Shown here one piece after another: positions 53,543-58,528 of a stretch of DNA of 64,000 nucleotides. Position 1 is the stretch's first letter. Each line of letters begins with the position of its first letter. The translations under genes were made by a program, and so were the position numbers. The notes beneath the pieces were generated by a model. The model made no database searches. It saw only the letters and a program-made list of their open reading frames with translations, and was not told the origin of the DNA. The stretch is from contig NC_019943.1 in assembly GCF_000327485.1 (NCBI RefSeq), positions 2,604,001 to 2,668,000 of the forward strand, written 5' to 3'. The DNA comes from Methanoregula formicica SMSP (GTDB taxonomy: Archaea; Halobacteriota; Methanomicrobia; Methanomicrobiales; Methanospirillaceae).

Positions 53543-53707
53543 ATGAAGAACGGCGATATCTGGCTCGTGGATCTCACCGATGCGAAAGGGCACGAGCAGC
53601 GGGGGATGCGCCCTGCGATCATTATAGGGAGCGCCAACGGCCTTGTCGTGGTTGTCCCGCTGACGAGCAGCACCGGCTCGCAATCGCGGCGCTCATCCGG
53701 GACCTGA
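53543..53707 (+). pseudogene. MazF/PemK-like toxin, truncated
   Basis: 54 codons: MKNGDIWLVDLTDAKGHEQR, then GMRPAIIIG and VVVVPLTSS, the first strands and conserved Gly/Arg/Pro/Thr-Ser positions of MazF-type endoribonucleases. After PLTSS the sequence turns basic and stops, whereas MazF proteins run to about 110 residues. Half of the fold is missing, so the toxin is probably inactive. Confidence 0.6.
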
Positions 53708-54050
53708 TGGGCCTGGATTAATCATTTTTCCGATAGGCATTCTCCGGTCAGTACCAGATGCAATCCCCGGCATTAACCAAATCCATTTAACATTTTTGCG
53801 CACCTCAATTCCAAGCCATCGTGCCCCGATTATCCTATATCCCGCGCAAATCTCTCCATTTTCTCGTTTCAAAATTTATTCATCCAAGCACATACCCTAT
53901 CAGGTTCTACTATTGTATGTCAAAGGGGCCCCGATGACCCGGAGAACAGAACCAACGTTTCTCCTCTGGCGGTGAAGGCTGCGCAATCCTTCACCGGAAA
54001 CCGGACCGACTTCAGAACAATAGAGAGGAGTGAAAGGATCCAAGGAGTTC
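53708..54050. other. Gap with weak hairpins upstream of the unknown cassette
   Basis: No gene is visible. AAATTTATT near 53871-53880 could be a TATA box, giving a long leader for the gene at 54177. GGGGCCCC (53925-53932) and a hairpin CGGTGAAGG/CCTTCACCG (53970-53996) are present. A hairpin of weaker form lies at 53941-53964. Confidence 0.4.
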
Positions 54051-54144
54051 GAAGAACCCTGACGGGTTCTTCTCTTCCATTGGGTTCTGATGAATTCGAG
54101 ACCTTCATGAGAAGGTTGAGAATGAGAAGAGCCGCAGGCTCTTC
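54051..54144 (+). repeat. Multi-hairpin unit, copy C
   Basis: Four hairpins in order: GAAGAACCC-TGAC-GGGTTCTTC (54051-54072), nine bases, GGGTTC-TGAT-GAATTC (54082-54097, with G-T pairs), then ACCTTC-ATGA-GAAGGT (54101-54116), nine bases, GAAGAGCC-GCA-GGCTCTTC (54126-54144) followed by GAACC. It ends 32 bases before the gene at 54177 and precedes its ribosome site AAGGAGGA. The order is a rotation of copies A and B. Confidence 0.7.
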
Positions 54145-54176
54145 GAACCAGTCAGAAAAAAAGGAGGAATTACAAA

Positions 54177-54680
54177 ATGGCAGATTTCGTACAGAAAACC
54201 GTAGTAAAGTCGGCGGTCCGCAAGCTCGCGGCCCCGATAGAGAATGTGGCAGCGTTCAACACGATCATCCAGTCGGTCATCACCGACAACCCGTTTGCCT
54301 GCTCAGCCTATGAGAGCGCCGGTGTCAACCACGCACCGGTCGAGAAGACCCGGGAAGCCTACGTGGCAAAGATCGCGTACCAGAACAACGATGCAAACGT
54401 TGTCGGAACGGACTCAGCGAAGTTCACCACGATCGCCGGGTTCAATGCCGGCGCAACCGCGCTCCTGAGCAACACGGACCTTGCTACCGCCCACGGGGGC
54501 ACAGCAGTCCGGGACACCCCGAAAGAGACCTACTCGGCGACCCTGAAGTGCCACGACGCCGGCGGGGAGATCTACATGGTCACGTTCACCCGCGAATCGG
54601 TCAGCATCACCTCGTACTCGGACGACGCGATCCGGACCCGGGTCGAGACCTGGGCGGACTCGGTGGCGGCTCTCGCGTAA
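54177..54680 (+). CDS. Unrecognised soluble protein, codon use of a highly expressed gene
   Basis: A 167-residue protein rich in Ala, Thr and Val, without signal peptide or membrane helix, with two Cys. It starts MADFVQKTVVKSAVRKLAAP and ends in a helix (RTRVETWADSVAAL). Almost all synonymous choices are C-ending, and AAAGGAGGA precedes the ATG, so strong expression is likely, as for a structural or surface-layer-type protein. I do not recognise the family. Multi-hairpin units flank it on both sides. Confidence 0.75.
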   Translation: MADFVQKTVVKSAVRKLAAPIENVAAFNTIIQSVITDNPFACSAYESAGVNHAPVEKTREAYVAKIAYQNNDANVVGTDSAKFTTIAGFNAGATALLSNTDLATAHGGTAVRDTPKETYSATLKCHDAGGEIYMVTFTRESVSITSYSDDAIRTRVETWADSVAALA

Positions 54681-54740
54681 ACGGTGTTCACGCGTAAGGA
54701 AAAGTCCGTAAGAGATTAAGCTCCCCCCTTGCGCCTCCGA

Positions 54741-54845
54741 CTGGTTTGAAAAACCAGGAGGATGAGAAGAACGCGGATGCGTTCTTCGAAAGCCCTGACT
54801 CGAAGAACCTTGCAGGTTCTTCTCGTGTCTCGGGTCTGAAGACCC
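54741..54845 (+). repeat. Multi-hairpin unit, copy A
   Basis: Order: CTGGTTT-GAA-AAACCAG (54741-54757), 8 bases, GAAGAACGC-GGAT-GCGTTCTTC (54766-54787), 14 bases, GAAGAACCT-TGC-AGGTTCTTC (54802-54822), 9 bases, GGGTC-TGAA-GACCC (54832-54845). A C5/G5 hairpin follows (54852-54865). It begins 60 bases after the preceding gene. Confidence 0.75.
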
Positions 54846-54977
54846 TCAACACCCCCCGGAGGGGGACGGGGCGCATTGCGATGCCCCTGCATTACCCGTA
54901 CAGGAAACTCTCGTAAATCCGGTAACAGGTAATACAGCACCATCGCCACCGGGGGGTGCCCACGCGGCGGGGTCCGA

Positions 54978-55080
54978 GAGGTTCGCAAGAACCTCGCGGA
55001 GGAGAAGAATTGCGGAGCGATTCTTCGACGCGGAAGTCGAAGAGCCTTCGGCTCTTCTCCTGTCTCGGGTCTGATGACCC
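54978..55080 (+). repeat. Multi-hairpin unit, copy B
   Basis: Same order as copy A: GAGGTTC-GCAA-GAACCTC (54978-54995), 8 bases, GAAGAATTGC-GGA-GCGATTCTTC (55004-55026), 12 bases, GAAGAGCC-TTC-GGCTCTTC (55039-55057), 9 bases, GGGTC-TGAT-GACCC (55067-55080). Most stem bases differ from copy A, yet pairing is kept. It ends 58 bases before the gene at 55139. Confidence 0.75.
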
Positions 55081-55138
55081 TCGACACCCCCGGGAGCGTC
55101 AAATCCCTCCCCGGTTTTTTTCTCGGAGCCACAGCAGT

Positions 55139-55300
55139 ATGGAAACAGAAATCCTCGGGCTCGTCCTCGGCGTTGTCCTTCCCCTCTATCCCATCCTGTT
55201 CATGATCCACCAGCGGATCGGCAGGTACGATGAGATTGTTGAGGAGTTCAAACGGCTGAGGGACGAGCACGAACGAATAAAGGAGGAATATCATGATTAA
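55139..55300 (+). CDS. Small one-helix membrane protein with coiled tail
   Basis: A 53-residue protein: a membrane helix (residues 5-23) followed by a charged helix (RYDEIVEEFKRLRDEHERIK) that could form a coiled coil. The layout resembles small phage or plasmid accessory proteins, but no family is recognised. It overlaps the next gene by eight bases. Confidence 0.65.
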   Translation: METEILGLVLGVVLPLYPILFMIHQRIGRYDEIVEEFKRLRDEHERIKEEYHD

Positions 55301-55772
55301 TGAGAACAAACCGGTCGCAACCGTGACCGGCCTGTACCGGGGAACCTTCTCCGGTCTTGAACCGCTGACGAAAGACACACCGCTCACGCTCGATGAAGTC
55401 CGGCGCAACCCGGTCTTCTACGAGCTCGAACTGGACCCGGACGAAGAGGACACGGACCTGATCGTTGACATCATCTACGACAACATGTCCCCGATGCGCC
55501 TGCAGGACCTCTTCCGGGGATCGGACATCCCTAAAGGTGTCCGCTTCTGGCCGGACTGGTTCGACATCCCACCATACCAGAAGATGCTGGACATGGACGG
55601 CCACCGGGTCTATCCCCGGGCCCCGGGCATCCACACGGTACGAATCAGGACAGCCCGCCGGAAGATCACCCAGCGCGGAAAGAAGCGGGACTTCTCCCCG
55701 GAAAACCACGGGTACATCAGCCCGGTCTACGAGTTTGCGATTGCAGCGGACACGAGTGAAAACCGGGAGTGA
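55293..55772 (+). CDS. Unrecognised 159-residue protein
   Basis: A soluble protein with an acidic middle (ELDPDEEDTDLIVDIIYD) and a basic later part (IRTARRKITQRGKKRDF). No motif is recognised and no Cys is present. AAAGGAGGAATATC gives it a strong ribosome site inside the preceding gene. It is linked by TGATG to a 13-codon ORF. Confidence 0.7.
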   Translation: MINENKPVATVTGLYRGTFSGLEPLTKDTPLTLDEVRRNPVFYELELDPDEEDTDLIVDIIYDNMSPMRLQDLFRGSDIPKGVRFWPDWFDIPPYQKMLDMDGHRVYPRAPGIHTVRIRTARRKITQRGKKRDFSPENHGYISPVYEFAIAADTSENRE

Positions 55773-55813
55773 TGGCAGTGAAGGGCTACGAATACCGGAT
55801 TTTTAAGGAATGA
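55772..55813 (+). CDS. Possible 13-residue coupled mini-ORF
   Basis: It encodes MAVKGYEYRIFKE. Its ATG shares the last base of the previous stop (TGATG), and its TGA lies inside the start of the next gene (ATGA). It fills exactly the gap between two genes, which suggests that it is translated to couple them, or that it is a real micropeptide. GGGAG lies three bases before its ATG. Confidence 0.4.
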   Translation: MAVKGYEYRIFKE

Positions 55814-56400
55814 AGATGTTCGAGTCAGAGGTGCAGACCCGGGCCGCGATCTGCGGTACCGGACTCCTGCCTGCCCTCATTTTTCTCTTCGCCCACCTGC
55901 CTCTGATCCTTATGGTCATACCGGTTGCAATCCTCTTTCTCGGCATTGCCGCTGACCCGGAGGAGACGCACGCGGTCTGGTACGGGATGCTGTCCGTACT
56001 CGGGATCTTCGATCTCGCTTCGTTAACGGACCGGGAGAAAGAGAACTACCGGGAGAAACGGCATTACTTCTGGTTCGGCGAGGTTGCGATGGCAGCAGTG
56101 CTGGCCGGTACTTTCGCGGTGCCGGCCGGGATCTTCCTTGCCGGAAAAGCAGAGATCACGCTTGCGTTCATCGGAGCAGCCGTGGTGTTCCTGCCGTTGT
56201 TCGTTTTCCTGCCGAAGCTGATCCAGCGAACAAGAAAAGCGGATGTCGATTCAGTAGTCGACGCGTTCGGGAAGAACGAGCAGGTAAAGAAGGTGTTCTG
56301 GGCTGTGTTTGCTGCGGTGTTCGGGCTGGTGCTGACAAAGATCCTGGACCCGGCAACGGCACGGCAGATTATTGGGATCATCACATCAATCGTGTTGTGA
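55810..56400 (+). CDS. Multi-helix membrane protein, unknown
   Basis: A 196-residue protein with about five membrane helices (near residues 13-30, 33-50, 90-110, 117-137 and 163-180) and a cytoplasmic charged loop (TDREKENYREKRHY). No transporter motif is seen. The start at 55810 is supported by the ATGA overlap with the mini-ORF; ATG 55816 is an alternative with better ribosome-site spacing. It is the last gene of the unknown cassette. Confidence 0.7.
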   Translation: MKMFESEVQTRAAICGTGLLPALIFLFAHLPLILMVIPVAILFLGIAADPEETHAVWYGMLSVLGIFDLASLTDREKENYREKRHYFWFGEVAMAAVLAGTFAVPAGIFLAGKAEITLAFIGAAVVFLPLFVFLPKLIQRTRKADVDSVVDAFGKNEQVKKVFWAVFAAVFGLVLTKILDPATARQIIGIITSIVL

Positions 56401-56530: not shown

Positions 56531-58528
56531 TCAGTGGACATCTCCCGGCCGGAACAGCAGCGACATCCGCGTGATGTCCGCGGGAGCGCCCAGGACAACG
56601 ACATCGTCCCCGGGCCATATATTTGTCTCACCGGAAGGATTAGCCAGGATCTCTTTCTGGCGGCGTATTGCGAGGATGGATACTCCGTAATCGCGACGGA
56701 TATTGAGCTGCGACAGAGTCTTGCCGGCAACCGGTGAATCCGGTGATACGTTCAGGATTGTGATATCCACGTCAGGAATGTTCTGCCGGAGATCGGACAG
56801 GTCGGTGCCGGACCCTGCCTGCTCCCGCAGGACCTGGTAGGTATCTGCCCGGATATCACGAATCACGTTCTCGACGGTCCCCTTCGGGACCAGGTATTTT
56901 TTGAGCACCCGGGAAAAGATCTCGACCGAAGTTTCAAAATCTTCCGGGATCACTTCGTCAGCACCAAGATCCCGGAGAACATTCACTTCGGGAAGGAACT
57001 GGGTCCGGACAATGATCCAGAGCCGGGGATTCATGGAACGGGCGATCCGGGTAATGATTCGTGTCGAGAGCGGATCGTTGACCGCCACAACAAGAAGCCG
57101 GGCCTGTTCGATCCGTGCATGGGTCAGGATAGCCTCATTGGTGGCGTCCCCGAAAAAGATCGGTTCCCCCTTCCTCCGCTCCTGTTCAACGGTCTCCGGG
57201 TTCATGTCGATGATGATGTACGGGATGTTGCCGATCCTCGCTACCTTTGCAAGATGCCGTCCGTTGAGGCCATACCCCACGATCACGGTATGATCCGAGA
57301 GGGCAGGCACGTCCCGGCCTTCCGGCTCGGGAAGATTACATCCCGCACGCAGCCGCTTCCCGAGTGGCAAACGGCAGACATGGTCGGCAACCTGCGGGCC
57401 GGCGGCGATGATAAACGGGGTCAGCGCCATGGTGATGACAGTGACAGCAAGGAAAGCCTGGCCGCTTGTCCCGGGAAAAAGACCATATTCCTTCCCGGGC
57501 ACGGAGAGCACGAACGCAAATTCGCCGATATTGCACAGGGCAAGCCCGGCAAGAACCGAGGTCCGGAGGGACTGGCCGATGGCAAGCGTGCTCCCCGCTG
57601 CAATGACCATCTTGAGGAGAAGGACACCGATCACGAGAACGATGATAAGAACGGGATTTTCAAGCACGAACCAGAGGTTGAGCAGCATCCCGACTGAGAT
57701 GAAGAAGAAACTCGTGAACATGTCCCGGAACGGCACGATGCTGACGAATGCCTGGTGGAAATATTCCGATTCCGACAGGGTCAGCCCTGCCAGGAATGCA
57801 CCGAGCGCGAGCGACAAACCCAGTTTCGATGACAGGAAGGTGATGACAAAGCAGACGAGAATGATGCTCAACAGGAAGATCTCCGTGTTCCGCACCGAGA
57901 CAATACGGGGCATGACACGGGGAAGTACCCATGCCGCGACAGCAAAAACCAGTGCCAGGAGGAGGACAAGGGTAAGGCCAAGGTTCAGCACGGCTCCGGT
58001 CAGGTCCGCTTCGTGCCCCGCAAGGATGGGAAGGGCGATCAGCATCGGGACCGTCATGATGTCCTGGTAGAGCGAGATCCCGAGCGTTGATCGGGCATAG
58101 GGTGTATTTACTTCCGCCCGGTCCTGGAATATCTTCAGCGTGATGGTCGTGCTGCTGTGGCAGATTAAAAGCCCGAAGAAGAGGGCGATGGCGGCGGGGA
58201 TACTGAAAATGACCATGATGGCATACACGGCAAGGATCGTCAGTACGACCTGGAGCGTCCCGGCAACCAGCACGATCTTCTTCATCTCAAAGAGGGTCTT
58301 GAACGAGAACTGCATGCCGATGGTGAAGAGCAGGAAAATGATACCGATCTCCGCGAGAGCATCGACCATCTGGGGATCCCGGACCAGGCCGAGACCATAC
58401 GGCCCGGCGATCATGCCGGTGACAAGAAATCCGACAACGCCGGGGATCTTCATGCGGGTCCCGACGGCAATCACGAATATGGCAAGGGCAAGGATGACGA
58501 TAGTATCGAGGATGAATGATGTAATCAT
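56531..58528 (-). CDS. KefB-type monovalent cation:proton antiporter with TrkA domains
   Basis: A 665-residue CPA2 antiporter. Twelve or so membrane helices (residues 1-385) include the ion-site region FLAGLTLSES; a TrkA-N domain follows (TVIVGYGLNGRHLAKVA, NAD-binding, near residue 415) and a TrkA-C domain ends the protein (VDITILNVSPDSPVAG). It exchanges K+ or Na+ for H+ and is gated by nucleotides. Length is normal. It is monocistronic. Confidence 0.92.
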   Translation of the reverse strand: MITSFILDTIVILALAIFVIAVGTRMKIPGVVGFLVTGMIAGPYGLGLVRDPQMVDALAEIGIIFLLFTIGMQFSFKTLFEMKKIVLVAGTLQVVLTILAVYAIMVIFSIPAAIALFFGLLICHSSTTITLKIFQDRAEVNTPYARSTLGISLYQDIMTVPMLIALPILAGHEADLTGAVLNLGLTLVLLLALVFAVAAWVLPRVMPRIVSVRNTEIFLLSIILVCFVITFLSSKLGLSLALGAFLAGLTLSESEYFHQAFVSIVPFRDMFTSFFFISVGMLLNLWFVLENPVLIIVLVIGVLLLKMVIAAGSTLAIGQSLRTSVLAGLALCNIGEFAFVLSVPGKEYGLFPGTSGQAFLAVTVITMALTPFIIAAGPQVADHVCRLPLGKRLRAGCNLPEPEGRDVPALSDHTVIVGYGLNGRHLAKVARIGNIPYIIIDMNPETVEQERRKGEPIFFGDATNEAILTHARIEQARLLVVAVNDPLSTRIITRIARSMNPRLWIIVRTQFLPEVNVLRDLGADEVIPEDFETSVEIFSRVLKKYLVPKGTVENVIRDIRADTYQVLREQAGSGTDLSDLRQNIPDVDITILNVSPDSPVAGKTLSQLNIRRDYGVSILAIRRQKEILANPSGETNIWPGDDVVVLGAPADITRMSLLFRPGDVH

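Follow-up and report, generated by a model that had tools for sequence, protein, structure and literature searches.

What are the four genes that lie between hairpin-rich repeats, next to Cas3, in this methanogen genome? A sequence-only reading of the locus had taken them for a linked set of no recognisable family and had offered a viral remnant, a cell-surface assembly or a defence system near CRISPR as answers. We pursued the question in the window, by which we mean the whole analysed stretch of 64,000 nucleotides (2604001-2668000 of a host genome consisting of a single contig of 2,820,858 bases), and in related genomes. The comparison of loci indicates that the four genes, here called A, B, C and D, form a real, conserved, lineage-specific chromosomal operon that exists in multiple copies. 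Tentatively, and with a confidence that falls a little short of even, we take this operon to be co-regulated and to supply an abundant soluble protein (A) together with a membrane complex, probably for envelope or stress maintenance, and not to be the remnant of a virus.

Gene content and distribution of the operon

All four open reading frames are confirmed on the + strand, and dN/dS values of 0.13-0.50 point to purifying selection on each. In the ORF list, gene A (54177..54680) encodes a soluble protein of 167 aa, and gene B (55139..55300) one of 53 aa, whose hydrophobicity suggests a single transmembrane helix, strong at about residues 5-23 and followed by a charged helical tail. Gene C (55293..55772; 159 aa) carries a conserved FWPDWF stretch. 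The product of gene D (55810..56400; 196 aa) has about four to six segments hydrophobic enough to mark it as a membrane protein; the alignment of D relatives suggests that its conserved start is probably the MFE at 55816, two codons downstream, which would give 194 aa. A sequence scan detected no hydrophobic signal or membrane segment in A and C. The description of B, C and D as an overlapping chain holds for B and C, which overlap by 8 nt in the window copy, but not for C and D, which are 37 nt apart, or 43 nt with the D start at 55816; overlap of C and D is present in some relatives, e.g. at locus L065. Likewise, gene A had been called highly codon-optimised, but its adaptation is moderate, at the 91st percentile among 103 genes (CAI reference set of 13 ribosomal-protein genes), and C stands higher, at the 96th, with D at the 38th. 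The values for A and C are consistent with good expression and are nothing exceptional.

Scans of A, B, C and D against Pfam, PHROGs and NCBIfam gave zero matches above threshold, so that the four proteins indeed lack a recognisable family. When PDB sequences were searched with the A, C and D profiles, only weak, unrelated matches came up, and the RNA family search of the window region returned none.

Methanoregula and its near relatives carry the A-B-C-D operon at some 40 distinct loci, with 1-6 copies per genome. After removal of duplicates, C lies downstream of A with order and strand kept, as A-B-C(-D), at 42 of the 92 distinct A loci, and the neighbourhoods thus bear out the linked set: no homologue of known function turned up, and the genes are not scattered, although A also occurs alone. 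Since the A-B gap is short in many relatives (66-142 nt, against 462 nt in the window copy, where hairpin repeats have widened it), the comparison assigns gene A to the same operon as B-C-D. The host genome holds three A-B-C-D copies (in the window, at 2.30 Mb and at 2.39 Mb) besides decayed ones, and A with a broken D at 0.92 Mb; it has seven A-like genes altogether.

Gene A is the more widespread component. It is present in 54 of 60 relatives, in 1-10 copies each, and nearly all intact copies have a length of exactly 167 aa. Close relatives recovered by search belong to Methanoregula and other Methanomicrobiales; alone, the gene is found throughout that order, to which it is confined in the phylum sample. 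Gene C was detected in 34 of 232 Methanomicrobiales genomes, all of one family, and in one genus only of the phylum-wide sample. Because most of the Methanomicrobiales have A unaccompanied by B-C-D, coupling is not obligatory. Lone A genes appear in the A tree both among ABCD-type ones and in separate clades, and the same tree contains orthologous copies across sister species (window copy and L073, L053 and L074, L055 and L106), with conserved flanks. As the copies have such orthologues, the tree argues that their multiplicity is inherited. Between loci the flanks vary; some include defence and mobile-region genes, without a consistent partner, and a search around the loci for a further conserved neighbour found none besides A-D.

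Leader palindrome and hairpin repeats

Upstream of gene A lies a palindromic leader element (53918..53940, + strand) of the form TGTC-AAA-GGGGCCCC-GA-TGAC. The leaders of A genes generally consist of a GC palindrome flanked by short complementary arms, the commonest form being TGTC-AAA-GGGGCCCC/GGGCGCCC/GGGCCC-...-GACA, with GCCC-AA-GGGCCC-AA-GGGC also seen. The exact leader core occurs twice in the host genome, each time upstream of an A gene. In the hairpin test, 71 of 93 upstream regions fit, as compared with 32% of random windows. Exact complementarity of the distal arm was found in 36 of 51 cases, where shuffling gave a mean of 28 and at most 33. The palindrome itself is clear, and this common element of A genes may act either in DNA, as an operator close to the transcription start, or in RNA, as a 5'-UTR element. 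At three loci outside Methanoregula (L145, L149 and L151), the stem of the A leader flanks a loop with CCCGGG directly 5' of the ribosome site; such a self-complementary loop could permit RNA-RNA pairing between molecules.

The hairpin units noted around the cassette are real dispersed repeats. Of the 57 genome matches to this stretch, most fall within the A-B interval, where hairpin-rich repeats are inserted at 54723..55110 (+ strand); further units lie at 54041..54150 (+ strand), between the leader and the start codon of A. Where such repeats are present, they occupy these same two intervals, and compact loci are devoid of the leader-A units. Hairpin repeats also occur at two other sites of the genome (L006 and L007), which match over about 185 nt at 91-92%, and A genes of other genomes have comparable units in their 5' leaders. 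At L055:8217-8465, a D relative has apparently received a hairpin unit (SKNSCKFFSSSNCTSRNSSDLE) by in-frame insertion; palindromic elements insert similarly in frame in Rickettsia.

Predicted folds and a possible role

Structure prediction, which had been proposed for each of the four proteins, was carried out for A and C. The AlphaFold2 model of A, built with 77 aligned sequences, is confident (pLDDT 93.3, pTM 0.83) and of mixed alpha/beta type, and a Foldseek search against the PDB and viral models gave no match with E below 1e-3. A faint but reproducible connection leads from residues 65-103 to the UPF0339/DUF1508 (YegP) proteins. The PF07411 (DUF1508) profile, with a cut-off of 22 bits, yields low-score matches in 10 of the 77 A members and reaches 24.7 bits in one divergent homologue and 19.4 in another, with no Pfam match to it in the A of the window. 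When 31 genomes were searched for DUF1508, five matches emerged. Three were strong, at roughly 60 bits and above; the other two were weaker, and each of these falls in frame within an A homologue, at identical residue positions. A small DUF1508 model scored 10 of the 96 A proteins above every one of the 1,920 shuffled decoys, in most cases at residues 65-103. The same residues were aligned in a profile comparison of ABCD-type A with DUF1508, not significantly, at a probability of 1.9% and with one of 40 column shuffles scoring higher. In the model they form a strand-strand-helix with an NG...S..Y...GI..V pattern, and the order of these elements locally fits the UPF0339 fold; a further strand-strand-strand-helix is found at the C-terminal end, and YegP can be a tandem repeat. 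At 167 aa, however, A has an extra N-terminal part, and a UPF0339 structure is absent from its best 50 Foldseek matches. These similarities suggest that A is a probable distant variant of UPF0339, the link being weak for ABCD-type A. For both E. coli and Haloferax, YegP genes have been reported to be stress-induced (PMC9501238, PMC12175516); our literature search on archaeal UPF0339 found nothing.

The AlphaFold model of C is beta-rich (pLDDT 89.2), and we predict an immunoglobulin-like beta sandwich. Its best Foldseek match in the PDB is the carbohydrate-binding domain of Wzt (E 3.6e-4, prob 1.0), followed by RhoGDI and other Ig-like sandwiches. C shares the general fold of the Wzt domain but differs from it in having neither sequence similarity nor fusion to an ABC ATPase, and the TM-score is only 0.42.

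How might these components work together? We hypothesize that each of the several A-B-C-D sites in a genome is transcribed from a palindrome-bearing promoter; as the promoters share the palindromic element, the copies at all sites would be able to respond together. A would be a soluble product made in quantity and bearing a UPF0339/YegP-like unit, D and B would provide a membrane scaffold with the charged tail of B facing inside, and the Ig-like domain of C would bind a ligand or partner and so link A to the scaffold. The formation of the complex, its orientation and the common regulation are all three inferred. Because B and D look membrane-bound and neither A nor C shows a hydrophobic signal or a membrane-spanning stretch, a complex at the inner face of the membrane is likelier than an exported cell-surface assembly. 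By analogy, the operon probably serves envelope or stress maintenance. The more specific proposal of an undescribed lineage-specific system, in which a palindrome-marked multicopy regulon yields an abundant soluble protein of new fold together with a B/C/D membrane complex for a methanogen-specific envelope function, is conceivable but in our estimate rather doubtful.

The Methanomicrobiales are a major methane-producing group, and A is a widely repeated, uncharacterised family of this order that is unnamed in every library searched. Its fixed length, multiple copies, well-adapted codons and own shared regulatory element suggest that A is likely important to the cells, and with operon and leader now defined, the question can be put to the test.

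Spread, defence or virus

Could A-B-C-D instead be a selfish or semi-mobile module, copied to new sites and decaying thereafter? The several scattered copies per genome with differing flanks, the decayed AD and D-only loci, and the many D fragments with a common 3' end and variable start points would agree with such a history, but no transposase, integrase or reverse transcriptase was seen to accompany the unit among the flanking genes, nor is any recombinase common to them. The copies are moreover old, at least one being syntenic between species; the genes are held by purifying selection; and the DNA similarity of paralogues usually runs from within or close to the A gene to the vicinity of the D stop, with no obvious shared termini. 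On balance, we consider spread of this kind unlikely.

Still less probable is a defence module with A or C as the sensor of an infection signal and D and B as the membrane effector. Small membrane proteins beside a soluble Ig-like domain recall how certain cyclic-nucleotide systems are laid out. Foldseek matches C moderately well to the AGS-C domain of a Pycsar cyclase, likewise Ig-like (prob 0.94, E 0.019), and B weakly matches the S_4TM effector (E 0.01-0.19). The latter match, however, covers one helix region and lies far under the cut-off, D shows no S_4TM match, and the operon is without a nucleotide cyclase or nuclease, with no CBASS or Pycsar cyclase next to an effector within A-B-C-D. 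In the PADLOC scan of the four proteins, B matched weakly and below threshold (E 0.01), and A, C and D had no match. Some flanks carry defence genes, but the 119 flanking proteins include no consistent defence partner, and the operon is multicopy in most genomes of the genus, unlike sporadic defence systems. Nor is the CRISPR neighbour conserved: Cas3 adjoins the window copy, whereas the orthologous sister-species locus keeps the cassette and its flanks without a match to the Cas3 region. Conserved linkage, as expected of CRISPR-associated accessory genes, is thus not seen.

A viral or provirus remnant with structural proteins is highly improbable, for although A is rigidly constant in length and predicted to be highly ordered, as capsid proteins can be, four scans of 2.9 million viral contigs and tblastn against phage genomes found no relatives, the fold search of viral proteins gave no significant match, and inheritance is largely vertical.

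The preferred reading thus remains that of a chromosomal operon, whose surroundings show some features of their own. At 53543-53707, just 5' of the cassette, Pfam identifies a 54-aa truncated gene of a PemK/MazF-like toxin (E 1.4e-11). A convergent antiporter-like gene follows at 56531-58528; since the sister species has no such gene between the cassette and the flank, it was either gained in this genome or lost there. Many partial D copies were recorded in G030, G019, G022, G001, G012, G023 and the genome itself (L056-L058, L170-L189). Hitchhiking with one neighbour gene was rejected for these fragments, as the genes downstream of them differ. They keep the C-terminus and vary in start, several beginning near 213 nt before the stop, and many are about 80-95% identical to the full D; they look like 5'-truncated copies or the products of decay from one side.
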